NCBI GenBank assembly: GCA_001799575.1
Contig: MGTT01000016.1
Span: 1 to 64,000 of the forward strand
Direction of reading: 5' to 3'
Source: Elusimicrobia bacterium GWA2_56_46
Lineage (GTDB): Bacteria; Elusimicrobiota; Elusimicrobia; Elusimicrobiales; UBA9959
DNA: 64,000 bases
Both the position numbers and the translations under genes were made by a program. How positions within the stretch are numbered: position 1 is the first letter of the stretch; each line of letters begins with the position of its first letter. The notes under the pieces are model-generated. The model worked only from the letters and a program-made list of their open reading frames with translations, did no database searches and was not told the origin of the DNA. Of this stretch, positions 3,282 to 37,815 are shown piece by piece.

Positions 3282-4202
3282 GTGAAAATCATGCTTACCG
3301 GCGGGGCCGGGATGGTGGGGCATAATGTCCTGGAGCATCCGGCCGCTTCAAAATTTGAAATTTTCGCACCCGGCAGCCGGGAATTGAATCTGTTCGACTA
3401 TGAGGCCGTCAGGGCCTATATCGCGAAAGTCAGGCCGGACTTCATTATCCACGCCGCCGGCCGGGTGGGGGGGATACAGGCCAACATGAAAGCGCCGGTG
3501 GCTTTTCTGCTGGAAAACCTGGACATGGGCCGCAATCTCGTCTGGGCGGCCAGGAACTGCGGCGTTAAGAGGCTGATAAATCTCGGCAGTTCCTGCATGT
3601 ATCCCAGGAACGCGCCGAACCCCCTCAAAGAGGAGATGATCCTTCAGGGCGAACTGGAGCCCACCAACGAGGGCTATGCCCTGGCAAAAACCGTCGTCTC
3701 GCGCCTGGCCGCCTATATCTCCCGGGAAAATCCGGAGTTCAGCTATAAAACGCTTATTCCCTGCAACCTGTACGGGCGCTGGGATAAGTTCGCACCGGAA
3801 CATTCGCACATGATCCCGGCCGTGATACGGAAGCTGCACCTGGCCAAGGTTAACGGGGATAAGACGGTGGAGATCTGGGGCGGCGGCACGGCGCGGCGCG
3901 AGTTCCTGTACGCCGGAGATATAGCCGACTGCATACACCGGGCGATAGCGGAGTTCGATACGCTGCCGGACGTCATGAACGTCGGTCTTGGGCGGGACTA
4001 TACCATTAACGAATATTACGAGGTTGTGGCGGAGACCGTCGGTTATAAAGGCGGCTTTACCCACGATCTTTCAAAGCCCGCCGGTATGGCCCAGAAACTC
4101 GTGGAGATCTCCCGCCAGACCGCCTGGGGCTGGAAGCCGAAAACGGCTCTTAAAGACGGTATAGCCAAAACATACGAATTTTTCCTGAAGCACGCAGGTT
4201 GA
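3282..4202 (+). CDS. GDP-L-fucose synthase family reductase/epimerase (possibly GDP-colitose synthase)
   Basis: The 306-residue extended SDR has the NADP-binding GGAGMVG at 7-13, the GSSCMYP strand with the catalytic Ser at 102-108, and the YALAK Tyr/Lys pair at 132-136. The family signature CNLYG...DKF..SHMIPA runs across 161-180. GDP-L-fucose synthase epimerises C3 and C5 of GDP-4-keto-6-deoxymannose and reduces C4. The related ColC acts on the 3-deoxy intermediate to make GDP-L-colitose. The next gene encodes a ColD-like 3-dehydratase, so the ColC role is a real alternative; the GT10 and GT11 genes in the window argue for fucose. Length is normal. The GTG start puts the Rossmann motif at the usual place. 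Confidence 0.85.
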   Translation: MKIMLTGGAGMVGHNVLEHPAASKFEIFAPGSRELNLFDYEAVRAYIAKVRPDFIIHAAGRVGGIQANMKAPVAFLLENLDMGRNLVWAARNCGVKRLINLGSSCMYPRNAPNPLKEEMILQGELEPTNEGYALAKTVVSRLAAYISRENPEFSYKTLIPCNLYGRWDKFAPEHSHMIPAVIRKLHLAKVNGDKTVEIWGGGTARREFLYAGDIADCIHRAIAEFDTLPDVMNVGLGRDYTINEYYEVVAETVGYKGGFTHDLSKPAGMAQKLVEISRQTAWGWKPKTALKDGIAKTYEFFLKHAG

Positions 4203-4306: not shown

Positions 4307-5482
4307 ATGATCCCCTTGATGAAGAACACGTTTCTTAACGAGTACGAAACCAAAAAAGAGCTGGTGGATTTTATACTCAAGGCCAAAATCCTCAGCATGG
4401 GCGAGAAATGCGCGGAATTCGAGAAAGCCTTCGCCAAGGCCCAGGGCAGGAAACATTGCGTCCTCTTCAACAGCGGCGGCAGCGCCAACCTGGCGCTTTT
4501 GCAGGCGCTTAAGAATATGGGCTTGTTGAAAAACGGAAGCAAAGTCGGTTTCTCGGCGCTTACCTGGTCCACCAATATCATGCCGATACTTCAGCTTGGC
4601 ATGAAGCCCGTGCCGGTGGATTGCGAAGCGCGGACCCTTAACTGCATGGCCGCCAATCTCGCGCACACGCTGAAGAAAACCAGGCTGGACGCTTTTTTCA
4701 TCACCAATGCCCTCGGTTTTACCGGGGATCTCGGCGCGATAAGGGAACTGTGCAAAAAGTACGGCGTCATCCTTCTGGAAGATAATTGCGAATCCCTCTC
4801 CACGACCCTGCCGGAGGGGAAAGCCGGCAATTTCGGCCTGGCCGCCACGTTCTCTTTTTTTGTGGCGCACCATATGTCCACCATCGAAGGCGGGTGCGTC
4901 TGCACCGACGACGACGGCCTGGACGAGATGCTGCGCATCGTCAGGGCTAACGGCTGGGACAGGAATCTCGGTTTCGCGGCCCAGCGCCGCCTTAGGGAAA
5001 AGCACGGCGTCAAAAGCGAATTCGAAGCCAAATATACTTTCTATGACCTTGGTTTTAATCTCCGGCCTACGGAAATAACGGGTTTTTTAGGGCTGATCCA
5101 GCTCAAATACCTGGACGAGAACTGCGCCGTCCGGCAGGAAAATTATCTCGCCCTGGAAAAAGAAGTCGCCGCCAATCCTGACCTGATCCCCCTGGAGAGG
5201 GGGCACCTCTCTTTTGTTTCCAGTTTCGCTTTCTGCGTAATCTGCAAGACCAGGGAGCTGCGCGGCAGATACATAGAGCAGTTCTCGGGGGCCGGCGTGG
5301 AGATACGCCCCATTATAGCCGGCAATATGCAGAACCAGCCGTTTTACGCCAAGTATGTGCCGGAGAAATATCCCCTGAAAGGCGCCGAGTTTCTGCATGA
5401 GTGCGGTTTTTACTTCGGCAACTACCCGGAACTGACCGGTTCGGATCTGGATATCCTGAAGAGCTGCCTGAGGAAATACTGA
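4307..5482 (+). CDS. His-type DegT/DnrJ PLP-dependent sugar 3-dehydratase (ColD-like)
   Basis: This 391-residue fold-type-I PLP protein belongs to the DegT/DnrJ/EryC1/StrS group, but the residue that normally holds the PLP Schiff base is His188 (SFFVAHHMSTIEGG, 183-196) instead of Lys. In known families this swap marks deoxygenating enzymes: ColD, which removes O3 from GDP-4-keto-6-deoxymannose, and RfbH on CDP-sugars. RANGWDRNL and the FNLRPTEITGFLG segment resemble ColD more than RfbH. RfbH also carries iron-sulphur cysteines, which I do not see here. A strong GGAGG (4293-4297) precedes the ATG at 4307; ATG 4319 is possible. It follows the fucose-synthase-like gene, together suggesting a 3,6-dideoxyhexose such as colitose. 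Confidence 0.8.
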   Translation: MIPLMKNTFLNEYETKKELVDFILKAKILSMGEKCAEFEKAFAKAQGRKHCVLFNSGGSANLALLQALKNMGLLKNGSKVGFSALTWSTNIMPILQLGMKPVPVDCEARTLNCMAANLAHTLKKTRLDAFFITNALGFTGDLGAIRELCKKYGVILLEDNCESLSTTLPEGKAGNFGLAATFSFFVAHHMSTIEGGCVCTDDDGLDEMLRIVRANGWDRNLGFAAQRRLREKHGVKSEFEAKYTFYDLGFNLRPTEITGFLGLIQLKYLDENCAVRQENYLALEKEVAANPDLIPLERGHLSFVSSFAFCVICKTRELRGRYIEQFSGAGVEIRPIIAGNMQNQPFYAKYVPEKYPLKGAEFLHECGFYFGNYPELTGSDLDILKSCLRKY

Positions 5483-6320: not shown

Positions 6321-7343
6321 ATGAACATGGAAACAAAAAATAAGCGGGATAAAAAAATACTGGCGGTCTTCATGGAATGGGATTACTGCGACCCTAAGCG
6401 GGGGCCCTCCATGGATAAGGTGTATTTCTACAATAATCTGGCAAAGCTGGCGGCCAAGGTGGAGCCTTTCTGGTACGACGCTTATATCAACGACCTCCCC
6501 AAGCTCCAGGAACTGCTGATAAACAAGGCCAAAGTTTATAATCCGGATCTTATATTTTTCGTGCCTTATATAGACCAGTTCACCCCCGCGACCCTGGATT
6601 TCCTTAAAGAACACTGGCCCACCCTGGCCTGGTTCGGCGATGATACCTGGCGCTTTGAAAGTTATGCCGCGAAGATGGCGCCGCACTTTACGCACGCGGT
6701 TACCACCGATGTTTTCAGCGTTCCCAAATATAAGAAACTGGGTCTCACCCCTATAATCAGCCAGTGGGCCGCCCAGCTTAACAGCGCCGACCCAGGCCCG
6801 GTTCCGCCGGAGTCTTACGAGTACGAGGTTTCGTTCGTGGGCGGATATAACAGGTTCCGGGCCTGGTACATAGAGCGCCTGGCCAGGGAGGGCATAAAAG
6901 TCCATTGTTTCGGCGCCGGCTGGCCCGCGGGCAAGATTTCTTTTGAAGAAATGGACCGTATCTTTTACAAAACCATAATAAATCTCAACCTCTCCAACAG
7001 CGTCAGCCACGACATAAGGTTCATCTTGAGCGGTTTCCGTTCGGTCGTGAATTATCTTCGCTCTCCCAAAAGGGCCGAACAGATCAAGGCCCGGAATTTT
7101 GAGATCCCCCTGGCCGGGGGATTCCAGTTGACCAACTACGCTCCCGGGCTTGAAAAATACCTGAAAATAGGCGAAGAAGTCGCGGTATTTTCCTCCCCGG
7201 AAGAATGCGCCCTCCAGATACGCTATTACCTGGAAAATGAGGCCGAGCGGCTAAAAATTGTTTTAGCCGGGCGCAAGAGAGCTATGGCGGAGCATACATA
7301 TTTCGCACGTTTAGAAAAGATCCTGAAGGAACTCTGGGGCTAA
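6321..7343 (+). CDS. CgeB-like glycosyltransferase
   Basis: A 340-residue cytoplasmic GT-B-type protein resembling CgeB/YkvP spore-maturation glycosyltransferases. The N-terminal half contains PDLIFFVPYIDQFTP and LAWFGDDTWRFE, the usual 'lord of the region' strand followed by an acidic D-D-x-W motif. The C-terminal half holds VSFVGGYNRFRAWYI, HCFGAGWP and the family's ARNFEIPLAGGFQLTNY segment ahead of a Glu-containing nucleotide-sugar site. A hydrophilic Lys-rich N-terminus allows ATG 6321 or 6327. It starts a run of glycan genes after the toxin-antitoxin pair. Donor and acceptor unknown; a role in building the repeat unit is inferred from context. Confidence 0.75.
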   Translation: MNMETKNKRDKKILAVFMEWDYCDPKRGPSMDKVYFYNNLAKLAAKVEPFWYDAYINDLPKLQELLINKAKVYNPDLIFFVPYIDQFTPATLDFLKEHWPTLAWFGDDTWRFESYAAKMAPHFTHAVTTDVFSVPKYKKLGLTPIISQWAAQLNSADPGPVPPESYEYEVSFVGGYNRFRAWYIERLAREGIKVHCFGAGWPAGKISFEEMDRIFYKTIINLNLSNSVSHDIRFILSGFRSVVNYLRSPKRAEQIKARNFEIPLAGGFQLTNYAPGLEKYLKIGEEVAVFSSPEECALQIRYYLENEAERLKIVLAGRKRAMAEHTYFARLEKILKELWG

Positions 7344-7362
7344 ATCCCGCCCCGCAACGCTG

Positions 7363-8835
7363 ATGAAAATAATATTGGCAACGCTTGCGATCGAACCGGA
7401 AAGCCGGAATGAAAACAATAGAAATGCGGCCTATTCATTGGGGCTGGGCTACTTGCATTCCACGCTAGAAGCCGCCGGGCACCAGGTCAAGACCCTGTTC
7501 CTTAACAATGTTGATTACTCTTTTTCCGATGCCGGTTTTTTCTCCGCCGTGGAAGAAATGAAGCCTCAGGCCGCCGGCTTTCAGATCTTCAGCATGAACC
7601 GTGTGGCGACTTTCGCCGCGATAGAAAAACTTCATTCGCTTTATCCCGAGATCCGTATTGTTGTCGGCGGCGTTCACGCTTCCATAATGTACGAGCAGAT
7701 CCTGATCAGGTTCCCCTATGTCGTGGCCGTTATAGGGGAGGGGGAGCTGACTTTGGCGGAACTGCTTGAATATTTTTCAGGCACGAGGACGCTTGAAAGT
7801 GTTAATGGTTTGGCTTTCTTTCATGATGGGCAAGTCAAGCTTACTTCCGAAAGGGCTCTGATAGAGGATCTGGACACTCTGCCCGAACCGAAGCACGATG
7901 TTTTCTTTGAAAGCGAACTCGGCCGCAATGTGGCCCATATCATCTCGTCAAGAGGCTGTCCCTTTGACTGCACTTTCTGCTGTCTTAAGGCTATAAGCAG
8001 GCGGCGCTATCGGGCGCGAAGCCCCGAAAATGTGGCCGCGGAGATCGAAAAACTAAAAGCAAAATATCCGCGTCTCACGGAAATACAGTTTCACGACGAT
8101 ACACTGCTTTTGGATAACGCGCGCGTTATAGCGTTGTGCAAATTGCTGGTAAAAAAAGACCTGAAACTTGATTTCGCATGCAGCGCCAGGGTTAAACCGG
8201 TTTCTGAGGAGATGTTTTACTGGATGCAGAAAGCCGGATTCACTAAGGTGATGTTCGGTCTGGAAACCGGGTCGGAGAAGCTCCTGCGCTCCATACACAA
8301 AGGGATAACAAAGGATGATGTTCTAAACCTTTTCAAGATCCTTAAACCCTACGATTTTAATGTCACGACTTTCCTTATGTGCGGCTTTCCCGGTGAAACC
8401 GATGAAACGGTCAGGGAAACCATAGAGCTGGTGCGCGCCACGCAGAAAATAAAATACAACCTGGTGGCCGGCGTAGGGAAATTATGGGTATACCCGGGCA
8501 CCGAAGTCTACCGCATCATGAAAGACGCAGGGAAGATCAACGATGAATTCTGGATGGGAGCGCTGCCGGTTCCCTATTTTACGGTCGAACATGACCTGGA
8601 GACTTTGAAGAAATTTGAGAAAACTATGGTGGAGACTCTTTCTTTCCTTAGTATATTCAGTTTCCGTGGTTTTTTTCTTCATTTTTTGAGAATGCCCTTT
8701 GTTGTTCTCAAATTTTTCATAAAACCTCGGAATAAGAAAATATTGCTCAGCGTGCTGGCGGCGTCCGCGCAGAGAAATTTCCCGAAGGTGTATAAACGAA
8801 TATATGGAGCGTATCGGAACGCGGTTGCCGGCTGA
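7363..8835 (+). CDS. B12-binding-domain radical SAM protein (copy 1)
   Basis: Residues 1-150 form a Rossmann-like cobalamin-binding-type domain (LGLGYLHSTLEAAGH, then VVGGVHAS at 100-107). Residues 190-400 are a radical SAM TIM barrel with Cys199, Cys203 and Cys206 in RGCPFDCTFCC holding the 4Fe-4S cluster. The DxHxxG loop that binds cobalt in classic B12 proteins is not seen, so binding without His ligation, or loss of B12, is possible. A C-terminal helical tail with a hydrophobic stretch (about 425-450) may associate with membrane. It is clearly paralogous to the protein at 9862-11247. Members of this class methylate unactivated carbons or do other radical chemistry; here modification of a sugar or lipid carrier is only a guess. 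Confidence 0.75.
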   Translation: MKIILATLAIEPESRNENNRNAAYSLGLGYLHSTLEAAGHQVKTLFLNNVDYSFSDAGFFSAVEEMKPQAAGFQIFSMNRVATFAAIEKLHSLYPEIRIVVGGVHASIMYEQILIRFPYVVAVIGEGELTLAELLEYFSGTRTLESVNGLAFFHDGQVKLTSERALIEDLDTLPEPKHDVFFESELGRNVAHIISSRGCPFDCTFCCLKAISRRRYRARSPENVAAEIEKLKAKYPRLTEIQFHDDTLLLDNARVIALCKLLVKKDLKLDFACSARVKPVSEEMFYWMQKAGFTKVMFGLETGSEKLLRSIHKGITKDDVLNLFKILKPYDFNVTTFLMCGFPGETDETVRETIELVRATQKIKYNLVAGVGKLWVYPGTEVYRIMKDAGKINDEFWMGALPVPYFTVEHDLETLKKFEKTMVETLSFLSIFSFRGFFLHFLRMPFVVLKFFIKPRNKKILLSVLAASAQRNFPKVYKRIYGAYRNAVAG

Positions 8836-8839
8836 TTTT

Positions 8840-9865
8840 ATGAAAACAACAAATCTGGCGATATGGGTCGGGAAACCCTATGACAACGACACGCTGTTCG
8901 ACAGTTCCAGCCCTATAGATCCGGATAAACGCTGGGCGCCATTTCAGCAGCTCAAACGCGACATCGAACTCAACGGCGGTACCTGCCATACGCAGGATGT
9001 ATGCTTTCGCGACGGCATTACCCCCGATGCCGTGCTTTTTCTGGATATGCCCGCCGGCCCGGTTGACCGTCTGCTGGGGAACTGGGCGGGGAAAGTCCGA
9101 AAATTGCTATTTTTGCAGGAGCCGCCCATCATTATGCCTCGCAACTGGGAGACCTCCGGGCACCGCCAGTTCGATAAGATATTCACCTGGAACGATACCC
9201 TGGCGGATGGCGGACGGTACATAAAGACCAACTGCCCCTATCCCGTTCCAGCTTCAATACCCAAAGGCCTGTCCCGGAAAAAACATTTCTGCGCCGTTAT
9301 CGCCGGCCATCATAAATTCACATATCCGTTCGAGCTTTATTCGAAACGCGAAGAGCTTGTCCGCTGGTTCGAGCGAAACCATCCGGAGGACTTCGATCTT
9401 TACGGCCGGGGCTGGGACGAGTATGTTTTTCACGGCATAAAACCCGTGAGGGCCCTTAACCGTCTCAAATTCCTGAAAAAGCTCCTTGCGCCGTCATTTC
9501 CGTCTTACCGGGGGCCGGTGGGGCGCAAGCGCCCGGTTCTTGAGGAACATAAATTCTGCGTCTGCTACGAAAACTCGTCCGATATGCCGGGCTATATAAC
9601 CGAGAAGATCTTTGACGCGTTCGCGGCGGGCTGCGTGCCGGTATATTGGGGCGCCCCGAATATCGCGGACCATATCCCCGCTGATTGTTTTATTGATAAG
9701 CGTAATTTCAACGACTACGAAACGCTGTATTCGCATATGAAAAACATGACGGACGAGGCCTATCTGCGGCATCTGGACGCCATCGAGGATTTTTTAAAAA
9801 GCGAAAAAGGCCATAGATTCTCGATCCCCTGCTTCTGTGAAATCGTCTTAAAGGAACTATCATGA
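8840..9865 (+). CDS. Alpha-1,3/4-fucosyltransferase (GT10)
   Basis: A 341-residue GT-B enzyme of family GT10. The diagnostic donor-binding block is present: FCVCYENSSDMPGYITEKIF at about 239-258, followed by DAFAAGCVPVYWG. In characterised members this binds GDP-fucose and transfers fucose in alpha-1,3 or alpha-1,4 linkage, typically to GlcNAc or glucose, on the cytoplasmic side. I chose ATG 8840, five bases after the preceding stop; the upstream start at 8804 would add 12 residues overlapping the radical SAM gene. It sits between two sister radical SAM genes and ends in an ATGA overlap. GDP-fucose could come from the reductase at 3282. Confidence 0.88.
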   Translation: MKTTNLAIWVGKPYDNDTLFDSSSPIDPDKRWAPFQQLKRDIELNGGTCHTQDVCFRDGITPDAVLFLDMPAGPVDRLLGNWAGKVRKLLFLQEPPIIMPRNWETSGHRQFDKIFTWNDTLADGGRYIKTNCPYPVPASIPKGLSRKKHFCAVIAGHHKFTYPFELYSKREELVRWFERNHPEDFDLYGRGWDEYVFHGIKPVRALNRLKFLKKLLAPSFPSYRGPVGRKRPVLEEHKFCVCYENSSDMPGYITEKIFDAFAAGCVPVYWGAPNIADHIPADCFIDKRNFNDYETLYSHMKNMTDEAYLRHLDAIEDFLKSEKGHRFSIPCFCEIVLKELS

Positions 9866-11247
9866 AAAAAGCGCTTTTATTCAGCCCCGCCTTGCAGAAA
9901 GACGCCCAGGCGCATTCCAAGGACAATTCCTACGGGCTTGGCCTCGCTTATCTGCACGCGGTCATAGAAAAGGCCGGCTATGAGATAATTACCAAAAGCT
10001 TCAATAACAGCGATCTGGCCGCTTCCGAAGCGGAAATGGTCGCGGACCTGCGAAGTTTCCGCCCCGATTTCCTCCTTGTCCAGATCTTCACCATGAACCG
10101 GGTCGCAAGTTACAGGCTTATAAAGCTGGCGCGGCAGGTTCTTCCGGACGTTAAAATAATTATAGGCGGGGTTCACGCCTCCATCTATTACGAGCAACTG
10201 CTGAAAAATTTCGAGGTTGACTGTGCCGTTATCGGCGAGGGGGAAGAGACCGTTGTGGAGCTGCTTGGCGCGCTCGCCTCCGGTCTATCCGCTGCCGGGA
10301 TAAGGGGCGCGGCCTATAAGGAAAACGGCGCGGTAGTCAAAAATCCCGACAGGCCGCTCATAGAGGATCTGGACGCGCTTCCGTTCCCGCGGCACGACCT
10401 CTTTATCCAGCCTGACCGGGAGATGGCCTGTATCCTTACCACCAGGGGCTGTCCGTTCAGATGCAGCTTCTGCTGCCTGCATACTATTTCCAGGAGAAAA
10501 TTCCGTAAGAGATCGGTGAAGAACGTGGCGGACGAGGTGGAGTATATTCTCAAGACCTTTAAAAACATAAATACCATCCAGCTCGCGGACGATACTTTCA
10601 CCCTTGACCAGCCGCGGGCCATAGAATTCTGCAAAGAAGTGATCAGACGTAACATTAAAGTAAAGTTTTTATGCTCGGCGCGGATAAAACCGGCCAGCGT
10701 CGAACTGTTCAAATTGATGGAGCAGGCTGGCTTCACCGGCATAGGTTTCGGTCTCGAAACCGGCAGCGCCAAACTGCTGCGCTCCATACACAAGAATATA
10801 ACCAGGGAAGATGTGCTTGAGACATTCAGGATGCTGAAAGATGTCGACATAAAGATAGTCACCTATCTTATGGTCGGTTTTCCCGGGGAGAACCGGGACA
10901 CGTTGGCCGAAACCATCGACCTGATAAACAAACTCCGGCAGATCAAATACTTTGAGTTCGCCGGCGTGGCCCGGTTGTGGGTGTATCCCAATACCGAGGT
11001 CTACGATATCATGAAAGCCGCCGGCCGCATCGACGACAATTTCTGGCTCACCGATCAGGATGTGCCGTTCTTCACGGTCGAGCACAGCGCCGAAGAGCTG
11101 GATAAGATGGTCACGGAGATAACTCTTGGCTGTACGTCGCTGCGGCAGGGGATAAAAAGGGCGGCTGCGGAGCTTCTGCACCCCCGTGCGACCGCGAAAA
11201 AGATCATCCCGCGGCTCCGCCGGCTTAAAAAATACTTTTACAGATGA
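9862..11247 (+). CDS. B12-binding-domain radical SAM protein (copy 2)
   Basis: A 461-residue sister of the protein at 7363-8835. It shares the same landmarks in the same order: a YGLGLAYLHAVIEKAGY-type N-terminal helix, VQIFTMNRVAS, IGGVHASIYYEQLL, IEDLDALPFPRHD, then the cluster motif with Cys197, Cys201 and Cys204 (RGCPFRCSFCC) and LLRSIHKNIT. No DxHxxG cobalamin loop is visible. The C-terminus lacks the hydrophobic tail of copy 1. AAGGA at 9851-9855 is a good ribosome site. It overlaps the fucosyltransferase gene by ATGA and the flippase gene by ATGA, so it is co-translated with glycan genes. Substrate unknown; a related but distinct substrate from copy 1 is likely. Confidence 0.75.
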   Translation: MKKALLFSPALQKDAQAHSKDNSYGLGLAYLHAVIEKAGYEIITKSFNNSDLAASEAEMVADLRSFRPDFLLVQIFTMNRVASYRLIKLARQVLPDVKIIIGGVHASIYYEQLLKNFEVDCAVIGEGEETVVELLGALASGLSAAGIRGAAYKENGAVVKNPDRPLIEDLDALPFPRHDLFIQPDREMACILTTRGCPFRCSFCCLHTISRRKFRKRSVKNVADEVEYILKTFKNINTIQLADDTFTLDQPRAIEFCKEVIRRNIKVKFLCSARIKPASVELFKLMEQAGFTGIGFGLETGSAKLLRSIHKNITREDVLETFRMLKDVDIKIVTYLMVGFPGENRDTLAETIDLINKLRQIKYFEFAGVARLWVYPNTEVYDIMKAAGRIDDNFWLTDQDVPFFTVEHSAEELDKMVTEITLGCTSLRQGIKRAAAELLHPRATAKKIIPRLRRLKKYFYR

Positions 11248-12686
11248 ACACGCAATATCTTATCGTCGGCGCCGGAAGAATACTTCAGATCCTTATAGCG
11301 CTGGCCGGCATGCGGTTGATGACGCATCTGCTTTCCGGGGCCGAGGTCGGTAATTTTTACCTTATTCTTTCCCTGGTGGCTTATTTTTCGCTGGTGTTCC
11401 TGAGCCCCGTGGGCCTTTACATGAACCGGCGTCTTCACAAATGGCACCAGGAGGGGAATCTCCTTAATTATTTCGCCTGTTACAACGTCTATGTCGCTCT
11501 TGTCAGCCTTGCCGCGGCCCTGTTTTTATTCCTGGGCAGAAAGTTTTTCGGGATCGGTTCGGGCATAAGCCCCGCGGCGCTGTGTTTCCTGGCCGCCGCT
11601 TATATATATTTCGGGACCTGGAACTCGACGTTGATCCCGGCCCTGAATATGCTGAATTACCGAAAGAGTTTCACGGCTCTTTCTACGGGCACCCTCCTCC
11701 TGGGCCTTGCCTCTGCCGTGGCGCTGGCTAAATTATATGCGCCTTCGGCCGTTTTATGGCTGTCCGGGCAGATCGCGGCCTTGTTCGCGTTGTCGGCGGC
11801 GGCGCTCGCATACCTGCTTCTGAAAATAAAAGACAAGCCGGATATGGGCTATGTTTGGGCGCGCATCAAAACGCCTGAACTCAGCGGCGTGCTCAAGTTT
11901 TCTCTGCCGCTTCTGGTTTCCGCCTTTTTTATGTGGCTCCAGAATCAGTCTTACCGGCTTATAGTCGAGAAATACCTGGGCCTGGATTTTCTGGGTTCTA
12001 TCGCCGTCGGGCTGGGCATCGCGGCGGCCATCGCGGCGGCGGCGGAATCCCTGGTTCAGCAGATCTACTACCCGCTTTATTACAGCGAGATCAATACGCC
12101 CGACGCCGGAAAAAGAAAGTTCGCCTGGGACAAAATGGCCGGCGTGATGATACCGCTCTATCTCCTGCTCACTATATTTGTCTCGTTTCTTTCCTGGCAT
12201 CTCGTGAACCTCCTTGTGGACGCCAAATTCCGTTCGGCGTGGATTTTCACGGTTTTCGGCGCCTGGGTGGAATTTGCCCGGATCACCACCAATATCCTCT
12301 CGACCGTGGCCCATTCCGAGATGCGCACCGAATCCATTACGAAGCCGTATATGTACGGCGGCCTTTTCACGGCGGCCGGAGTTTTTATGGCTTCCAGATC
12401 CTCCGCCTATACTTATCTCGTTCCCGCCGCGCTTGTCCTTGGCGGGTTTATCACGCTTTTTCTGATGTTCAAAAGCATGAGGAGCGTCATGCGTTTCAGT
12501 CTGGCCGTTGGCCCGCTCAAGCTGGCTTTGCTCCTGGCCCTGCCGTTCCCGCTGGCACTGCTGGTGAAAAATCCACAGGGTTCCATACCGGTTTCCATCC
12601 TGATCCTGGCCCTTTTCGGCGCTTATATGGCCGCCGGCCAGTATCTGCTCTACAAAAAACAAAACGCCGGAGGGCTTAACGGATGA
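11244..12686 (+). CDS. Wzx-like oligosaccharide flippase (first copy)
   Basis: A 480-residue protein of the MATE/MVF/PST superfamily with about 12-14 transmembrane helices and short loops. The N-terminus (VGAGRILQILIALAGMRLMTHLLSGAEVGNFY, shown in parts) has the early Arg and the Gly-x-[FY] segment usual in polysaccharide flippases. Such proteins move undecaprenyl-diphosphate-linked repeat units from the cytoplasmic to the periplasmic leaflet. It is translationally coupled to the radical SAM gene upstream. A second flippase gene lies at 40787, so the window holds two export routes or one composite locus. The Lys-rich C-terminus is cytoplasmic by the positive-inside rule. Confidence 0.8.
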   Translation: MNTQYLIVGAGRILQILIALAGMRLMTHLLSGAEVGNFYLILSLVAYFSLVFLSPVGLYMNRRLHKWHQEGNLLNYFACYNVYVALVSLAAALFLFLGRKFFGIGSGISPAALCFLAAAYIYFGTWNSTLIPALNMLNYRKSFTALSTGTLLLGLASAVALAKLYAPSAVLWLSGQIAALFALSAAALAYLLLKIKDKPDMGYVWARIKTPELSGVLKFSLPLLVSAFFMWLQNQSYRLIVEKYLGLDFLGSIAVGLGIAAAIAAAAESLVQQIYYPLYYSEINTPDAGKRKFAWDKMAGVMIPLYLLLTIFVSFLSWHLVNLLVDAKFRSAWIFTVFGAWVEFARITTNILSTVAHSEMRTESITKPYMYGGLFTAAGVFMASRSSAYTYLVPAALVLGGFITLFLMFKSMRSVMRFSLAVGPLKLALLLALPFPLALLVKNPQGSIPVSILILALFGAYMAAGQYLLYKKQNAGGLNG

Positions 12687-12839
12687 ATTCTCCAGCTTGC
12701 GCCGGGTTTCTGTAGGAAACTACAGTTTACTGTTTAATGCATATATAGTAAACCAGACTTTACGATTCACCGCTTTATCTTTTTGGTTTCCTCTACTAAA
12801 AGTTATAGGAAAGTCCGGAGAACGGCACAATCTGTCGCG

Positions 12840-13880
12840 ATGTTTGAAAATATGAAAACCCCCCTGGTCTGTATCTGCGTTCCCGCTTATAATGCCGGGC
12901 TTACCCTGGCCGAAACCCTGGATTCCATCCTTGGCCAGACTTACGGGAACCTGAAGATTTTCATAGTGGACAACGCCTCCACGGACAATACCCTTGAGAT
13001 CGCCGACGCTTACGCCAAAAAAGACCCCCGGATCACGGTGGTTCGTAACGATGTTAATGTCGGCGGAGAGGGTAATTTCACACGCTGCCTCCAATTGGCG
13101 ACCGGGGAATATACCGCTATTTACCATTCCGACGATATCTACACGCCGCGCATGGTGGAGGAGGAAGTCCTGTTTCTGGAGGCGCACCGGGAAGCCGGCG
13201 CCGTTTTTTCCATGGCGGTGGCAATTGACGGAAAGGGCAGGGAGGGCCGTCTTTATAAGCTCCCGGCCTGGCTCCGGGCGCAAAACAAAGACGAATACGG
13301 TTTTGACGATCTCTTCCGGGCGATGCTGAAGTACGGCAATTTCCTGTTTTGCCCCGCCGCGATGGCAAGGACCGAAGTATACCGCGACCGTATAAAGGTT
13401 TGGGACGCCGGGAATTACGGCAGTTCCGCCGACGGGAATGTTTGGCTGAGAATAGCGCAAAATTTCCCCATAGGCATTATAGACAAACCCCTGCTTAAAT
13501 ACCGCATAAGCGTCAGCAGTTTCAGCTATCACGCCGCGCGCGGAAAAACCGGGCCGCATAATATGTTCCGCGTGTTCAATGATTACATAAAAGGCCCCGC
13601 GGCCGCCCTCATGGGCGCTGATGAGCGAAAAGATTACGAAGTGCTGGTATTAAAGGACAATATAAACAGGGCTTTTAACCTGCTGCTTTCCGGCAAAAAA
13701 AAAGAGGCGGCCGCGCTTTTGCCGGGTGTTTTCCGGCCGGGGCTTATTCTGTATGGCCTCAGGAGCCCCGAACATTTCAGAGTCCTTGTTTCCGGATATT
13801 TTGTATTTTTATGCCTGGCTTTGCCGGTAAACGAAACAATAAAAAAGCTCCTCTGGAAAGTCAAATTCAGCGACGCCTGA
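12840..13880 (+). CDS. Family 2 glycosyltransferase
   Basis: A GT-A fold transferase of about 346 residues. CICVPAYNAGLTLAETLDSI opens the nucleotide-binding half, IVDNASTDNT follows, and HSDDIY carries the metal-binding acidic pair in the DxD position. ATG 12840 is preferred; a TTG at 12783 would add a Ser/Arg/Lys-rich stretch unlike the family, and ATG 12852 is also possible. A C-terminal hydrophobic stretch (VSGYFVFLCLALPV) may be a membrane anchor. About 150 bp of A+T-richer, gene-free DNA separates it from the flippase gene. It likely adds one sugar to the repeat unit; the sugar is not predictable. Confidence 0.82.
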   Translation: MFENMKTPLVCICVPAYNAGLTLAETLDSILGQTYGNLKIFIVDNASTDNTLEIADAYAKKDPRITVVRNDVNVGGEGNFTRCLQLATGEYTAIYHSDDIYTPRMVEEEVLFLEAHREAGAVFSMAVAIDGKGREGRLYKLPAWLRAQNKDEYGFDDLFRAMLKYGNFLFCPAAMARTEVYRDRIKVWDAGNYGSSADGNVWLRIAQNFPIGIIDKPLLKYRISVSSFSYHAARGKTGPHNMFRVFNDYIKGPAAALMGADERKDYEVLVLKDNINRAFNLLLSGKKKEAAALLPGVFRPGLILYGLRSPEHFRVLVSGYFVFLCLALPVNETIKKLLWKVKFSDA

Positions 13881-15584: not shown

Positions 15585-16871
15585 ATGGTTAACAGTGCCA
15601 AGATTAAAGAAGTTTTACTCGACCAGTTGGGCGATATCCTCAGCATTTTGGATAAATGCCGCGTTGAGCGCCTTGTTGAGCCGGAATTACGCGGCGCCCT
15701 TGCGGACAACCTTGTTAAGGTGATAAGCGGAGTGCGCCGGTGCGGCAAGTCCGTCCTGGCCCACCGCGTACTAAGAGATTTGCCGTACGCCTACGTTAAT
15801 TTTGACGACGAACGGCTGGCGGACATTGCCACCGCCGACTTAAACCTTGTGCTGGAAGTCCTTTTGGAGCTTAAACCGGGTTTTAAGTATATCCTGCTTG
15901 ACGAAATACAGAATATAGAGAAATGGGAACTTTTTGTCACCCGGCTGCAGCGCGGCGGCTATAAAGTGATCATCACCGGGAGCAACGCTCATCTGCTGGG
16001 CCGCGATCTGGCGACCCATTTGACCGGACGGCATAAAGTTTTTGAGATTTACCCGTTTTCTTTCCTGGAATATCTTCGCTCGCGCGGCATGGATTTTCCG
16101 CCCGGCAAAGCTTTGAGCACCCGGTCACGGGCCGACATCAGCGCCGCTTTCCATGATTATTTTTCCGCCGGAGGGTTCCCGGAGCTCCCCGGCATTGTAG
16201 ACAAGAAATCGTATCTGCGTGATCTGTACGATAAAATCCTCACGCAGGACATAGCGTTCCGGCACGGAGTAAGGCATATTAAAACCCTTAAGGATATCGC
16301 GCTTTATACCGCGAACAATTACGCTTCCAGGCTTTCCTACAAGAATATCAAAGACGCCTATTCGATTGGGAGTATACACACGGTTAAGAACTACCTGGCC
16401 TATATGCAGGAGGCTTATCTTTTTTTTGCCGTGGAGGCGTTTTCGCATAAAGCGCGGGAGCGCGTGCGTCTGCCCAGAAAAATGTACGGTATTGACGCGG
16501 CTTTGCTGCGCTCAATCTCCGTATCGGGCCAGAAAAATGAGGGCAGGCTGCTTGAAAATCTGGTGTATCTGGAACTGCTGCGGAGAAAAAAGCATGTTTT
16601 GTATTATAGCGACCCCCAGCGCAAGTACGAGGTGGATTTTGTGTGCCGTCAGGAAACCGGGGGGGCGGTGGAGCTTATCCAGGTTTGCCTGGATACCAAT
16701 ATGGCGGAAGTTAAGCAGCGTGAGTTGAGGGGCCTGCAAAGCGCGTTAAACGCTTTTAAGGGTGTTTCAGCGGATGGCCTGACAGTGATTACGCTTGACA
16801 CCGGCGGCACTGCACGTATAGCCGGCCGCCAGGTAAAATTTGTTCCGGCCTGGGAGTGGCTGCTGCAATAA
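15585..16871 (+). CDS. AAA+ ATPase with DUF4143 domain (copy 2)
   Basis: A 428-residue relative of the ATPase at 13970, of a different subfamily. Walker A is GVRRCGKS at 49-56; Walker B is YILLDEIQ at about 102-109, followed by NIEKWE as usual in this group. EIYPFSFLEYL and the strand ITGSNAHLLG fit the AAA_14 domain. The C-terminal DUF4143 part ends in YEVDFV, the nuclease-like acidic strand. Promoter spacing gives almost no leader, as for copy 1. Its stop is eight bases before the ATG of the GT4 gene. Biological role unknown; it sits in a stretch rich in toxin-antitoxin genes. Confidence 0.8.
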   Translation: MVNSAKIKEVLLDQLGDILSILDKCRVERLVEPELRGALADNLVKVISGVRRCGKSVLAHRVLRDLPYAYVNFDDERLADIATADLNLVLEVLLELKPGFKYILLDEIQNIEKWELFVTRLQRGGYKVIITGSNAHLLGRDLATHLTGRHKVFEIYPFSFLEYLRSRGMDFPPGKALSTRSRADISAAFHDYFSAGGFPELPGIVDKKSYLRDLYDKILTQDIAFRHGVRHIKTLKDIALYTANNYASRLSYKNIKDAYSIGSIHTVKNYLAYMQEAYLFFAVEAFSHKARERVRLPRKMYGIDAALLRSISVSGQKNEGRLLENLVYLELLRRKKHVLYYSDPQRKYEVDFVCRQETGGAVELIQVCLDTNMAEVKQRELRGLQSALNAFKGVSADGLTVITLDTGGTARIAGRQVKFVPAWEWLLQ

Positions 16872-16878
16872 CCCAACC

Positions 16879-18006
16879 ATGCGAATAGCGATCCTGAATC
16901 TGACCGGGGGCGGCGTGAGCGGGGGGTACAAGCGTTACCTCTCCACCATGCTCCCGCGCCTCGCCGCGTCCCCTCAAATTTCGGAGATACTCTGCGCCTC
17001 GCCGTCTTCTTTCGGCGTAGAAAAATGGGCGCCCGCCACGGCCAAAGTAAAGTTTACCGCCTGTGAACCGTTCCGCTTCATGCGCCACGCCCCGGATCCC
17101 GGTTTAAAGCGGGCGCTTGATGAATTCAGGCCGGATCTTATTTTTGTTCCGATAGAAAGGCATCTCCGCTACCGTAATGTCCCCGTAGTTACCATGGTCC
17201 AGAATATGGGCCCGCTGAGCGGGGTGAAAGTTGTCAGTGGCATCGTTGAAAAAGCCAAATGCCTGGCCCAGGTTTTTGAAACGCGGCTGGCGCTGAAAAG
17301 ATCGGCGGCCGTGATCGCGCCTACCGAGTATGTCAAAAACTTCCTGGTACGGAACCTGGGCCTCCCGGCGGCGAAAGTCCAGATCATTAATTACGGCTCT
17401 TCTTCCGTGCCGCGCAATGTCAGGCCTCCGGCCGGACTGGCTCCGATGCCCGGCAGCTTTGTTTTTGCCGCTGGCTCCCTGGAGATTTACAGGGGGCTGG
17501 AAGACCTGATAAAAGCCATGGTTCCGCTTAAAACCGCTTTCCCCGGCCTGAAGCTTCTGCTGGCCGGAACCGCCCGCCAGGCCACGCAGCCGTATTTTCA
17601 GGAACTTAAAGACCTTTCCTCTAGGTCGGGCGTGGCGGACGATGTTTTATGGCTGGGCGACCTGCCGGATGAAGAGCTTTCATGGTGCTACCAGAACTGC
17701 TCCGCTTTCGCCATGACCAGCAGGGTGGAATCTTTCGGCTTCGTTGCCCTTGAAGCGCTGGCCCACGGCTGCAACTGCGTTTCCTCCGACAGCCCCTGCC
17801 TGCCCGAGATCTTTAAAGACACCGCCCTCTACTACCGCCCCGGCGACAGTGAAGCCCTGGCAAAATCGACAGGCGAAATCCTCGCCCGCGATCCCGAAGA
17901 GCGCGAAAAATACAAAGTCAAAGCTTTTAAGCGAGCCTGGCAATTCTCCTGGGAAGAAGCCGCCGAAAAAACCATCCGCCTGTTTACGGATGTATCCGGT
18001 TCCTGA
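16879..18006 (+). CDS. Family 4 (GT-B) glycosyltransferase
   Basis: A retaining GT-B transferase of about 375 residues. The N-terminus MRIAILNLTGGGVSGGYKRY carries the Gly-rich acceptor loop. VIAPTEYVKNF marks the linker, and the C-terminal domain has FVFAAGSLEIYRGLEDL, then AFAMTSRVESFGFVALEAL with the Glu-x7-Glu motif of GT4 enzymes. The chosen ATG 16879 avoids a 13-residue extension overlapping the ATPase gene. It is the only glycan gene within the 14-21 kb accessory belt and may have been separated from its operon by insertions. Sugar specificity unknown. Confidence 0.82.
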   Translation: MRIAILNLTGGGVSGGYKRYLSTMLPRLAASPQISEILCASPSSFGVEKWAPATAKVKFTACEPFRFMRHAPDPGLKRALDEFRPDLIFVPIERHLRYRNVPVVTMVQNMGPLSGVKVVSGIVEKAKCLAQVFETRLALKRSAAVIAPTEYVKNFLVRNLGLPAAKVQIINYGSSSVPRNVRPPAGLAPMPGSFVFAAGSLEIYRGLEDLIKAMVPLKTAFPGLKLLLAGTARQATQPYFQELKDLSSRSGVADDVLWLGDLPDEELSWCYQNCSAFAMTSRVESFGFVALEALAHGCNCVSSDSPCLPEIFKDTALYYRPGDSEALAKSTGEILARDPEEREKYKVKAFKRAWQFSWEEAAEKTIRLFTDVSGS

Positions 18007-21358: not shown

Positions 21359-21466
21359 CGGATTTCCCTATTCTGCTATCAGCTCCTGCGCAAGTCCGGC
21401 GTGGACAAAATTGCCGGCGGAGTCCGCATTGTATCCGCGGACAAATTCCTGGCGGCCCTGGTTTAA
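21359..21466 (+). pseudogene. PIN-like C-terminal fragment
   Basis: An open stretch of 35 codons reading RISLFCYQLLRKSGVDKIAG... and ending VRIVSADKFLAALV has the look of the last strand and helix of PIN-domain toxins. It has no start. The match is weak and other small proteins could end like this. Confidence 0.25.
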
Positions 21467-21503
21467 AAACATCCTGGCGCTTTCGGACCCGCTCAAAGCA
21501 AAA

Positions 21504-22922
21504 ATGACTTATAATAAAAAACTTGAAAATATTTCCGCCGGTGTGTTACTGGTGTACCTGGCCGCCTATTTTTTTGTTCCGTATAAACCCTGGCAGTCGC
21601 CCATAAGCCTCCATACGCCGTTCCTAGGCCTCGGTCTGATCCTTTATTTCTTGAGGATTTTCCCGGACATACTCCGCGGCGGTTTTTATTTTCCGCGCGA
21701 CCTTGTTTTTTTTACCCTTGCCGCGGTGTTTTTCATGATTTCATCCGGAATAGTGCATTGTAAGGAGTTTTCACGGCAGGGCGTGCAGGCTTATACTATT
21801 TCGTTCCTTTGCTTTATCTTTGTCAGAGGCGCAGTCCGGAACCTGAATCTCAATGCCTTATTTTTTGGGATGAAAGTATACCTCATTGTTTCCGGTATCC
21901 TTATCTTGCTGCAGATAAAATTTGCGGGGCCGTTTTTTGTGGCGGGTTTTGGAGGACAGATGAATTCCGGAAAGGGGGTTCCGGGCTGGGGATTCGGCAA
22001 CACCCTTATTTGGGCAGGGGGGGCGATGGCCTGGATGCTGAGTATAATCCTGACCAGATACGCATTGTCGTGCAACGAAAAGTCAGGCATACGCGCCAGG
22101 CTTTTTGATCTGAGTGCCCTGGGCTTGGGCGCTATCGGCCTTTTTTACACTCTGAACAGGGGAGCCTGGGTGGGAATGGCTTTGGCCATGCTGCTCCTTT
22201 CAGGGATTCTCATACGGGCAGGCTTATTTCAAAAAAGTTTTTTAAAGGGTTTGGCCGTGCTGCTCTTTTTTGTGTCCGTATCCGCGGTAGTCCTGCGCCC
22301 CAACATATATAAAATGCACGAAAAGCTTTCCTTTATAAAAAGTTTCATGCACGCCGACGCATATGAGATATCGACAAAAGTTCCTGTTGCGGATAAAGGT
22401 TCTATCGCGGAAAAGGTCTCTTTTATGGAGGGGTTTCCCGAAAAACCGAGACAGCTGCTGGCTAATGATGCCTCCACCTTAACGCGGCTAAGGGCATGGG
22501 GCGTTGCGTTAGACGGGATAAAAACACATCCATTCTGGGGGCTGGGCATCGGACAATTCCCCGGATTTTACGAAAAAGCCTTCCCGCGCCTGTTTCCAGG
22601 CCTGGAGTGGTGGGAGTTCGATCCGAACACAAAACAGATACCGCACAACTCCTATTTATATTATTCTGTTGAGGCGGGTTTATTGCCGGCAGCTTTTCTT
22701 TTTCTCTTCATCATCATCCTTCTGGTTAACGCTTTCCGGCTTGGCGTCCGCGCTCCGGTATTCCCGTTTTTCATCGGCGCTGTCACGCTATGCGTCTGGA
22801 TACTCACTTGTGATTACATAATCGAACGTATTTTTTGGATAGCCCTGGGCCTGGCGGCGGGCTTCCCGCCGACAGCCCGGCAGAACGGCCAAAAGACGCC
22901 CGGATTCATCGAACATCCATAA
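21504..22922 (+). CDS. O-antigen ligase/polymerase family protein (WaaL/Wzy)
   Basis: A 472-residue multipass protein with about 10-12 transmembrane helices. The large periplasmic loop (about residues 270-395) and the Wzy_C region with LTRLRAWGVALDGIKTHPFW, GLGIGQFPGFY and HNSYLYYSVEAGLLPA are typical of O-antigen ligases: the Arg and His act in transferring the glycan from undecaprenyl diphosphate to lipid A core or protein. The chosen ATG 21504 leaves a short Lys-rich cytoplasmic tail before the first helix; the TTG at 21411 would add an unlikely leader from a toxin-gene remnant. It precedes a second candidate polymerase gene. Ligase or polymerase cannot be separated by sequence alone. Confidence 0.8.
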   Translation: MTYNKKLENISAGVLLVYLAAYFFVPYKPWQSPISLHTPFLGLGLILYFLRIFPDILRGGFYFPRDLVFFTLAAVFFMISSGIVHCKEFSRQGVQAYTISFLCFIFVRGAVRNLNLNALFFGMKVYLIVSGILILLQIKFAGPFFVAGFGGQMNSGKGVPGWGFGNTLIWAGGAMAWMLSIILTRYALSCNEKSGIRARLFDLSALGLGAIGLFYTLNRGAWVGMALAMLLLSGILIRAGLFQKSFLKGLAVLLFFVSVSAVVLRPNIYKMHEKLSFIKSFMHADAYEISTKVPVADKGSIAEKVSFMEGFPEKPRQLLANDASTLTRLRAWGVALDGIKTHPFWGLGIGQFPGFYEKAFPRLFPGLEWWEFDPNTKQIPHNSYLYYSVEAGLLPAAFLFLFIIILLVNAFRLGVRAPVFPFFIGAVTLCVWILTCDYIIERIFWIALGLAAGFPPTARQNGQKTPGFIEHP

Positions 22923-27885: not shown

Positions 27886-28947
27886 ATGGAAAAAATTAAA
27901 AATTTGATGATAGCTTCTGAGATAACCGTCAAACAGGCTTTAAAGAAGATGGATGAGGCGGGGGCAAAGATTCTTTTTGTCGCTGACGATGCGAAACGTC
28001 TTATCGGGACCGTTACCGATGGCGATATCAGGCGGCATATCCTCAAAGAAGGTCTTTTAGGTGTTCCGGTGGCGCGTATTATGAATTCGGAGCCTGTTTC
28101 TCTTCTAGAAGGGTATTCGAAAGAGGAAGCCAAAGGGATAATGGTTTCCAAGGCTATAGACTATTTGCCTGTGGTGGATAAGGTGGGGAAGGTGATTTCG
28201 GCCATAAGATGGCTCGATTTGTTCGAAAAGAATATTTCAAATAATGAACTGCACGGTGTTATGGCGATAATAATGGCCGGCGGGACCGGGAGCCGCTTGG
28301 CCCCGGTTACCAGTTTTCTACCCAAGCCATTAATCCCCATAGGCGATAAGCCGATAGCGGAAATGATAATGGAGAAGTTCTTAAGCTTTGGATGCAGGGA
28401 TTTTTACTTTTCAATTAACTTTAAGGGCAACTTGCTGAAAGCCTATTTCAATGAATTTAAACATTTATTCAATATCAGTTATCTACAGGAAGACAAACCC
28501 CTGGGAACTATCGGCAGTTTGCACATGCTTAAGGGTAAAATAAAACGGCCCTTCTTCGTCAGCAACTGCGATATCCTGATAGAAGCCGATTATTCCGATA
28601 TATACAAGTTCCACCGGGAAAATAAAAACAAGATAACCATGATCGTTTCCATGAAGCATTACACTATCCCTTACGGAGTTTGTGAGATCAGCAACGGAGG
28701 CGCGTTGAAGGGAATAAAGGAAAAACCGGAGTATGATTACTTGGTGAATACCGGCCTTTACGTTATGGATCCCGATGTCATTAATGACATCCCCAAAAAT
28801 AAGTTTTACCATGTTACCGATCTAATCGCCGATTACACAAAAAGAAAGAAAAAAATAGGGGTGTATCCTATTTCCGAGAAATCCTGGTTTGACATGGGTG
28901 AATGGCAGGAATTTCAGAAGATGTTCAAAAAGTTCGGCAAGGAATAG
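27886..28947 (+). CDS. ptmE: PtmE-like glucosamine-1-phosphate guanylyltransferase with CBS domains
   Basis: The N-terminal 120 residues are a CBS pair (KIKNLMIASEITVKQALKKM, later GTVTDGDIRRHILK and VARIMNSEP). Residues 123-345 are a sugar-phosphate nucleotidyltransferase with GGTGSRL and FLPKPLIPIGDKP. This CBS-plus-transferase fusion is characteristic of PtmE, which charges GlcN-1-P with GMP so that legionaminic acid is made from GDP- rather than UDP-sugars. The CBS pair probably senses an adenine nucleotide or pathway ligand. Lies in frame order between LegC and LegH, one base short of touching the next gene. Confidence 0.85.
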   Translation: MEKIKNLMIASEITVKQALKKMDEAGAKILFVADDAKRLIGTVTDGDIRRHILKEGLLGVPVARIMNSEPVSLLEGYSKEEAKGIMVSKAIDYLPVVDKVGKVISAIRWLDLFEKNISNNELHGVMAIIMAGGTGSRLAPVTSFLPKPLIPIGDKPIAEMIMEKFLSFGCRDFYFSINFKGNLLKAYFNEFKHLFNISYLQEDKPLGTIGSLHMLKGKIKRPFFVSNCDILIEADYSDIYKFHRENKNKITMIVSMKHYTIPYGVCEISNGGALKGIKEKPEYDYLVNTGLYVMDPDVINDIPKNKFYHVTDLIADYTKRKKKIGVYPISEKSWFDMGEWQEFQKMFKKFGKE

Positions 28948-28948
28948 A

Positions 28949-29590
28949 ATGGAAAAGATAATCGTCCTGGGCGGCGGTGGGCATGCCAAGGTGGTAATAG
29001 ATGCCATCAACGCCATCGGGAAATATAAGATAGCCGCTCTTTTAGATCCCTCTTTGCAAAAAGGCTCGGAAGTTCTGGGCGAAAAAGTAACAGGCGGGGA
29101 TGCTGAACTGGCCCGCCTTTTCACCCGCGGAATAAAAAATTGCGTCATAGCTGTCGGGAGTGTAGGTAATATTGACGCACGTAAAAAACTTTACGCGAAA
29201 GCCGAAAGATCAGGTTTGAGTTTCCCGGTTCTGGTCCATCCGCGGGCGGTCGTTTCAAAGTATGCCCGCCTCGGCGGAGGGACATTCGTCGCCGCGGGGG
29301 CGATCGTAAACCCAGGAGTTATCTCCGGGGTCTGCTGTATTATCAATACCGGCGCGGTGGTGGAACATGATTGCAGGCTTGGGGATTTTGCGCATATTTC
29401 TCCAAACGCCGCTCTTTGCGGCAATGTTTCCGTGGGAGACGGTGCCCATGTCGGGGCCAGCGCTACGGTCATAGAGGGGCTTGCGATAGGCAAAAACACC
29501 CTGATAGGGGCGGGGAGCCTGGTCTGCGGGGATGTAGGCAACGGCTGGCTGTGCTACGGTGTGCCCGCTAGGAAAAAAGGTAAAAGATGA
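28949..29590 (+). CDS. legH: LegH-like sugar N-acetyltransferase (PglD family)
   Basis: A 213-residue PglD-type enzyme. The N-terminal Rossmann-like part has VLGGGGHAKVVIDAI for the UDP- or GDP-sugar; the C-terminal left-handed beta-helix has hexapeptide repeats (VEHDCRLGDFAHISPNAAL, GNVSVGDGAHVGASATV). His in VEHDC is the catalytic base in PglD. It would acetylate the 4-amino group made by LegC from acetyl-CoA. ATG 28949 directly follows the upstream stop; a start at 28889 would create a basic extension in the overlap and is unlikely. ATGA overlap with the LegI gene. Confidence 0.85.
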   Translation: MEKIIVLGGGGHAKVVIDAINAIGKYKIAALLDPSLQKGSEVLGEKVTGGDAELARLFTRGIKNCVIAVGSVGNIDARKKLYAKAERSGLSFPVLVHPRAVVSKYARLGGGTFVAAGAIVNPGVISGVCCIINTGAVVEHDCRLGDFAHISPNAALCGNVSVGDGAHVGASATVIEGLAIGKNTLIGAGSLVCGDVGNGWLCYGVPARKKGKR

Positions 29591-31751: not shown

Positions 31752-32682
31752 AAAAACACTGATAGTGGGACTGGGCTCTATGGGGCGGCGTTACGCGAGG
31801 CTGCTGCCTGGAGTTGGGGATTTCGAAATTTACGGCCTGCGCTCTGGCAAAGGGGGACCATGCCCCGGAGTGAAGGACCTTTATTCCTGGGCCGAGGTCG
31901 AGCGGGTTGCCCCCAAGGTGGCGTTTATAACCAACCCGACTTCTTTGCATATATGTACCGCTGTTAAATGCGCAGGGCTGGGGATGCACCTTTTTATAGA
32001 GAAACCGCTTAATATGCGGCTGTCCGGGCTGGCCAAGTTGAAGAAGGTCATTAAAGCCCGCAGATTGTCTTCGTATGTGGCTTATAACCTGCGCTTTCAC
32101 CCGGGCGTGGCAGAAATGCGCGAAATAGTACGCCGTGAAGGCTTCTGGCATGCCAGCGTGAGGTGTTCTTCCTGGCTGCCGGACTGGCGCCCGGACACCA
32201 ATCATAAAAGATCATATAGCGCCAATGCAAAGATGGGCGGGGGAGTGGTACTGGATCTTTCGCACGATGCCGACTACGCCCACTTCATCTTCGGTGAGAT
32301 CTCTTCTATTGAGGGGTTGGCTAGGCGGTCGTCCAATGTGACAGTGGACGCTGAAGACGTGGCCGACATGAACCTGCGGCTTAAAAAAGGCGGTTATGTT
32401 CCGGTTCATCTGGATTTCTGCAGCCGGTTTAATGAGCGTACAGTAAAGTTTACGACCCGGGAAGCCTCCTATGAGCTTGACCTTATAAAAGGGATTTTGC
32501 TGACAAGCAGGGGTGGGCGCGTTACGCGGAAAAAATATATGGTCGACAGGGATTTTACTTACAAGGCTGAAATACGCTACTTTTTCAGCAGGCTGGGCGG
32601 CAAAATGATGAACGACATCGACGAGGCATCCTCCCTGTTGGGGAAACTTGTTAAATTCAAACGCGGGAGCAGCTTGGCATGA
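31738..32682 (+). CDS. Gfo/Idh/MocA oxidoreductase, PtmF-like
   Basis: A 314-residue NAD(P)-dependent oxidoreductase: IVGLGSMGRRYARLL binds the cofactor, MHLFIEKPLN carries the conserved Glu-Lys-Pro, and VAYNLRFHPG plus the DLSHDADYAHF helix form the substrate side. A member of this family (PtmF) lies in the same place in Campylobacter flagellin-glycan loci, where with PtmA it helps supply the amino-sugar precursor. The precise reaction here is uncertain. It overlaps LegG by 14 bp and the cytidylyltransferase by 4 bp, so belongs to the operon. Length is a little short for the family. Confidence 0.72.
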   Translation: MAKPEKTLIVGLGSMGRRYARLLPGVGDFEIYGLRSGKGGPCPGVKDLYSWAEVERVAPKVAFITNPTSLHICTAVKCAGLGMHLFIEKPLNMRLSGLAKLKKVIKARRLSSYVAYNLRFHPGVAEMREIVRREGFWHASVRCSSWLPDWRPDTNHKRSYSANAKMGGGVVLDLSHDADYAHFIFGEISSIEGLARRSSNVTVDAEDVADMNLRLKKGGYVPVHLDFCSRFNERTVKFTTREASYELDLIKGILLTSRGGRVTRKKYMVDRDFTYKAEIRYFFSRLGGKMMNDIDEASSLLGKLVKFKRGSSLA

Positions 32683-37795: not shown

Positions 37796-37815
37796 CAGGT
37801 AAAGGATTAGTGATT

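Follow-up and report, generated by a model that had tools for sequence, protein, structure and literature searches.

Two B12-domain radical SAM proteins flanking a GT10 glycosyltransferase in a putative colitose-type polysaccharide cassette of an Elusimicrobia bacterium

Described systems and a related locus in Elusimicrobia

Cobalamin-dependent radical S-adenosylmethionine (rSAM) enzymes methylate sugar carbons in gentamicin biosynthesis, where the proteins responsible are GenK and GenD1 (PMC5461906). HpnJ, an rSAM protein with a B12 domain, acts on a lipid-linked amino sugar and forms the hopanoid cyclitol ether (PMC12583986). Together these enzymes provide precedents for rSAM action on sugar carbons and on a lipid-linked sugar. 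A plasmid lipooligosaccharide (LOS)/rhamnose region of Brachyspira hyodysenteriae carries several radical SAM genes beside glycosyltransferase and nucleotide-sugar genes, with no function given (PMC4267127), and apart from these Brachyspira genes of no known role we found no described rSAM enzyme of O-antigen, colitose or polysaccharide biosynthesis in the literature. Here we examine a stretch of 64,000 nucleotides (nt) from Elusimicrobia bacterium GWA2_56_46 (the window; contig 16, MGTT01000016.1, of a 2.66 Mb assembly that is 98.8% complete), in which genes for two B12-domain rSAM proteins, termed rSAM-A and rSAM-B, lie on both sides of a gene for a family GT10 glycosyltransferase. The occurrence of rSAM genes beside glycosyltransferase genes is not wholly new, given the Brachyspira region; no ColD/GT10 unit is reported there, and the literature searched yielded no link between rSAM genes and a cassette with ColD and GT10.

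GDP-colitose is produced by the successive action of GMD, ColD and ColC, and a ColD enzyme together with an Fcl-like short-chain dehydrogenase/reductase (SDR) is the gene pair expected for this pathway. The colitosyltransferase of the Escherichia coli O55 O-antigen pathway, WbgN, belongs to family GT11. Its natural donor is GDP-colitose, and GDP-fucose is tolerated (PMC12723683). Like the O55 pathway, the Elusimicrobia locus encodes a ColD-like dehydratase with the His motif, an Fcl-like partner and a putative GDP-L-sugar transferase, but it differs in that the transferase is of GT10 rather than GT11 and in the presence of the additional rSAM genes.

Genes of the cassette and their distribution

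The genes for rSAM-A (7363..8835; 490 amino acids (aa)), the GT10 transferase (8840..9865), rSAM-B (9862..11247; 461 aa) and a putative Wzx-type flippase (11244..12686) all lie on the forward strand; when open reading frames (ORFs) were re-derived, the first three fell at the positions given in a preliminary description of this DNA. The ATG at 8840 is preferred as the GT10 start over the ORF start at 8804 because the latter overlaps rSAM-A and because the protein read from 8840 aligns over its full length with its relatives. A gene for a CgeB-like glycosyltransferase (6321..7343, forward strand; Glyco_trans_1_2, Pfam PF13524; 59-80% identity to cassette genes of G001, G021, G139 and G154) ends 19 nt before rSAM-A, the rSAM-A stop is separated from the GT10 start by 4 nt, and the GT10/rSAM-B and rSAM-B/flippase junctions are 4 nt overlaps (ATGA). 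The tight operon of both rSAM genes, GT10 and flippase that had been described is thus evident at each junction, and the overlaps and short gaps from 6321 to 12686 are consistent with a single transcript.

Upstream on the same strand are two genes whose products bear on the identity of the sugar. The first (3282..4202) encodes an Fcl-like SDR that is probably ColC, the GDP-colitose synthase; it scores 302.6 bits with the NCBIfam model GDPFucSynFcl, below the cut-off of 500, its best match in the Protein Data Bank (PDB) is GDP-L-fucose synthase, and it has a counterpart of 80% identity in syntenic position in G021. The second (4307..5482) encodes a ColD-like pyridoxal/pyridoxamine phosphate (PLP/PMP) 3-dehydratase of the DegT fold, in which HH (TFSFFVAHHMSTIEGG) replaces the Schiff-base Lys; this motif is kept in all 16 relatives compared. 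In PDB searches the protein scores 205 bits with ColD, the GDP-4-keto-6-deoxymannose 3-dehydratase, and 128 bits with the CDP-sugar enzyme E1. Being closer to ColD than to E1, it probably uses GDP-4-keto-6-deoxymannose as substrate. The GT10 protein matches the C-terminal GDP-sugar-binding motif of PF00852 at 52.8 bits (gathering score 23.9) and aligns with the Helicobacter pylori alpha-1,3-fucosyltransferase 2nzw over residues 227-305 (49.6 bits); its donor is probably GDP-colitose or GDP-fucose.

To assess conservation, we used a survey set of 341 genomes of the phylum and a nearer set of 40 relatives. Membership of the clade that contains rSAM-A and rSAM-B (the A/B clade) was assigned in the phylum survey at scores of at least 470 bits, and absences from cassettes were rechecked by tblastn because in GC-rich contigs a gene can escape the ORF caller when the opposite strand shadows it. 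A ColD of the present type occurs in 15 of the 341 genomes, and these include all seven that carry the A/B clade (Fisher p 6e-11, a value that ignores kinship and whole-cassette transfer). In six of the seven the rSAM and ColD genes share a contig at a spacing of 1-10 kb; in G001 a contig break intervenes. GT10 is directly followed by rSAM-B in each of the five B-carrying genomes, and this pair is the unit that recurs. The complete set of A, GT10 and B is present in one further genome, G139 (identities of 79%, 80% and 78% for A, B and GT10), where GT2 and SDR genes separate A from GT10, and in G001, G021 and G138 rSAM-B follows GT10 and A is absent. Two genomes, G130 and G233, carry a single A/B-clade rSAM gene beside ColC and ColD with no GT10, and G130 has a GT11 gene. 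Among the 40 relatives, close homologues of rSAM-B and GT10 are confined to G001 and G021, and the best match to rSAM-A in both is the B gene. Four genomes (G132, G148, G154 and G155) have ColD, GT10 and flippase genes with no A/B relative within the 17-20 kb read.

The assignment of both rSAM genes to a polysaccharide assembly cassette in the preliminary description is therefore sound. Co-occurrence of two rSAM genes with GT10 does extend beyond this genome, to G139, but the order in which they enclose GT10 was seen only here among the 341 genomes. A specific link between twin rSAM genes and GT10 was rejected, as A accompanies GT10 in only two genomes. The two-step modification put forward in the preliminary description is hypothetical: B is found without A in three genomes, and an A/B-clade enzyme without GT10 in two. 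In G138, a remnant (L072:17402-17667) joins the 3′ end of a second GT10 gene to the 5′ end of rSAM-B, and is evidence of a presumed decayed duplicate of the GT10-B unit.

The origin of A and B was judged on a large tree built in a quick mode and, for the key split, on a more careful tree of 22 rows. One clade holds three separate branches (93-100 support): A and the G139 orthologue of A, B and its four orthologues, and the G130/G233 proteins. A does not nest within B, and there is no supported branching order among the A, B, G130/G233 and Magnetococcales groups. Because A and B belong to two different groups, each well supported, a recent tandem duplication was rejected; judging by these trees, they are old subfamilies. 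The GT10 proteins with an adjoining rSAM-B do not form a single clade, which implies repeated gain or loss of an rSAM gene next to GT10. Several B12-domain rSAM genes in tandem were also seen in relatives (G002:C43:82277-92652 and G012:C20:145488-166596). Outside the window, a region (G000:C15:31731-60735) has about 19 radical-SAM matches in 30 kb and two Oxidored_nitro (nitrogenase-like) matches in its middle (C15:50130-52485); we take it to resemble the nitrogenase-paralogue islands described for Elusimicrobia.

Other genes of the cassette, all on the forward strand, follow the arrangement in relatives. The flippase assignment combines a weak match to Polysacc_synt_3 (20.3 bits, below the cut-off of 23) with synteny at 61-76% identity in G001, G021, G138 and G139. 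It is followed by a GT2 glycosyltransferase gene (12783..13880; PF00535) that is conserved 3′ of the flippase, a GT4 glycosyltransferase gene (16840..18006; PF00534; 51-55% identity to cassette genes of relatives), and a gene for an O-antigen polymerase/ligase-like membrane protein (21411..22922; 40-53% identity in the G021, G138 and G139 cassettes), which is Wzy-like by position and topology only. Elsewhere in the same glycan region there is a GT11 transferase gene (37810-38622), and the window also has a sialic-acid-type set (28889-33395) in which the NeuD, NeuB and NeuC models score above cut-off and a PseF-like cytidylyltransferase falls below its own.

Sequence and predicted fold of rSAM-A and rSAM-B

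The two rSAM proteins are 47% identical over 417 aa, and both match PF02310 (B12-binding) and Radical_SAM in Pfam, in agreement with the earlier view of them as paralogues of B12 plus radical SAM layout on either side of GT10. Chance can be ruled out as a concern for the domain assignments of the rSAM and GT10 proteins. Regular-expression searches of the translations found CxxxCxxC once in each, at position 199 in A and 197 in B, and found no DxHxxG in either protein, as had been reported. Mmp10 binds cobalamin without DxHxxG (PMC8828468), and the missing motif is therefore uninformative and was rejected as evidence. The genome has a gene for a MetH-like protein that carries the classical B12 motif, DVHDIG; therefore cobalamin is used. 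Relative to their G139 orthologues, rSAM-A and rSAM-B are under purifying selection (dN/dS about 0.05 and 0.08, with dS near saturation). A third B12-domain rSAM gene is located in the same large glycan region (49238-50911); its product is only distantly related to A and B and scores below all curated cut-offs.

AlphaFold2 models (pLDDT 89.6 for rSAM-A and 92.6 for rSAM-B) were compared with solved structures by using Foldseek. The rSAM-B model matches TsrM, MgmA, CysS, AprD4 and OxsB, and the rSAM-A model matches OxsB, CysS, TsrM and MgmA. Overall, the best solved matches to the predicted fold are TsrM, MgmA, CysS, OxsB and TokK, mostly cobalamin methylases, with AprD4 close. In profile searches of the PDB, the alignment extends over the B12 domain of OxsB, CysS, TokK and MgmA, and these matches lean towards cobalamin binding by the putative enzymes. 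Both proteins thus combine CxxxCxxC and Radical_SAM with an N-terminal B12-binding domain recognized by sequence and fold, as in class B cobalamin-dependent rSAM methyltransferases. They resemble TsrM, MgmA, CysS, OxsB and TokK in domain order, in CxxxCxxC and in fold (Foldseek E 1e-18 to 1e-25), but are only 16-21% identical to solved members and are encoded in a polysaccharide operon rather than a cluster for an antibiotic or a ribosomally synthesized and post-translationally modified peptide.

Candidate sugar and reactions

We see about an even chance that the rSAM proteins are optional enzymes that tailor, by radical chemistry, a colitose-type repeat unit made by a mobile polysaccharide cassette; B would belong with the GT10 step, and the wider clade with ColD. 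We infer a donor sugar, a substrate, a chemistry and an order of steps as follows. The locus would be a Wzx/Wzy-type surface-polysaccharide cassette making a 3,6-dideoxyhexose, most likely as GDP-colitose, and, in the cytoplasm, GT10 would transfer colitose to a lipid-linked repeat unit. The rSAM proteins would use a 5′-deoxyadenosyl radical to modify unactivated carbons, either in the colitose residue or in its carrier saccharide, before the repeat unit is exported by the flippase. The association of B with the GT10 gene makes it probable that B works on the product made by GT10, or else that GT10 favours the product of B. For A, the target may be the deoxysugar itself or a different linkage, because other A/B-clade members adjoin ColC and ColD without GT10. 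Within colitose tailoring, cobalamin-dependent C-methylation is the single most likely reaction, to which we give roughly half of the weight. It is unlikely, if conceivable, that A and B make two radical C-modifications of colitose in succession, before and after GT10 transfer, to yield a branched 3,6-dideoxyhexose in a surface polysaccharide, with radical-SAM tailoring as a regular and mobile module of cassettes of the O-antigen type.

Support for the tailoring of a colitose-type unit comes from the confinement of the A/B clade, within the phylum, to genomes that have the uncommon ColD, from the constant placement of B 3′ of GT10 proteins that are not one clade, and from the two different cassettes, with GT11 in G130 and without GT10 in G233, that keep an rSAM gene beside ColC and ColD. 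Several observations weigh against it. In eight ColD genomes no A/B relative lies near ColD, and the rSAM step is therefore dispensable; the genome of the Magnetococcales member of the A/B clade has no ColD of this type; and, because the cassette moves between genera, part of the co-occurrence is hitch-hiking. In addition, neither protein passed any NCBIfam rSAM model at its cut-off, and hence no reaction is assigned, and the fold of the non-methylating AprD4 is almost equally close.

The last two points also bear on a less probable, though still plausible, alternative in which A, B or both act in the same setting by chemistry other than methylation: as a diol dehydratase of the AprD4 kind that deoxygenates the sugar further, as an epimerase, or by HpnJ-like ring rearrangement. 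AprD4, whose substrate is a sugar, is the top profile match in the PDB (191 bits), and the best NCBIfam scores are to ApyD, HpnJ and BchE, which have mixed chemistries; HpnJ, like A and B a B12-domain rSAM protein, makes the cyclitol ether of a lipid-linked glucosamine. The AprD4 alignment, however, covers the radical domain only, whereas the B12-domain match is to cobalamin methylases, and no AprD3-type reductase partner was noticed beside A or B, although no search aimed at AprD3 was made. Scores are far below the cut-off for HpnJ (TIGR03471; A 154.2 and B 156.8 bits, cut-off 577.6) and also below those for AprD4 (NF033070; 77.4 and 83.9 bits, cut-off 500) and B12_rSAM_oligo (TIGR04295; 52.2 and 71.8 bits, cut-off 400), and no hopanoid genes were recognized in the cassette. 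Passenger status, with the rSAM proteins drawn from a hugely expanded family to act on a lipid, a cofactor or another substrate and their position reflecting the shuffling of polysaccharide loci, is the least probable of the alternatives. With 52 radical-SAM and 14 B12-domain matches in the genome, an rSAM gene in a given locus is unremarkable by itself; relatives have many tandem rSAM genes, and GT10-ColD cassettes persist without an A/B relative. Against it are the co-occurrence with ColD in seven of seven genomes, the 4 nt gene overlaps, the strong purifying selection on A and B, and the retention of the rSAM-ColD link in two cassette types.

The sugar itself might alternatively be fucose, as assumed when the preliminary description spoke of a fucosylated saccharide, with GT10 an ordinary fucosyltransferase and the rSAM proteins modifying a fucosylated glycan. 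We regard this as unlikely, somewhat less so than passenger status. The best score of the SDR at 3282 is as a GDP-L-fucose synthase, solved relatives of GT10 are fucosyltransferases, and a GMD-like gene is present at window position 54708. Nevertheless, in most cassettes ColD is the neighbour of the SDR, and it retains the His motif of a 3-dehydratase, the SDR is below the Fcl cut-off while a second, different Fcl is encoded on contig 7 (C7:27036-28082), and G130 combines rSAM, ColC and ColD with GT11 in place of GT10. The term fucosylated is thus probably wrong, the cassette having the ColD/ColC pair for a 3,6-dideoxyhexose, and gene context makes colitose a more likely donor for GT10 than fucose. 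A DegT, Fcl-like, thiamine diphosphate (ThDP)-enzyme and SDR block (L204:11634-16818; L187:600-5927) was also observed, in G001 next to ColC/ColD and in the present genome on contig 7; it looks like a pathway for a branched 3,6-dideoxysugar of the yersiniose type.

Among protein families that still lack assigned reactions, those combining a B12 domain with radical SAM rank with the largest, and polysaccharide loci have been neglected as a place to look for their substrates. Through the linkage to ColD and GT10, the substrate of one subclade is narrowed down to a saccharide of the colitose type, which makes a direct biochemical test possible. If the tailoring of such a saccharide is confirmed, radical editing at unactivated carbons would join the means by which bacteria diversify their surface glycans.

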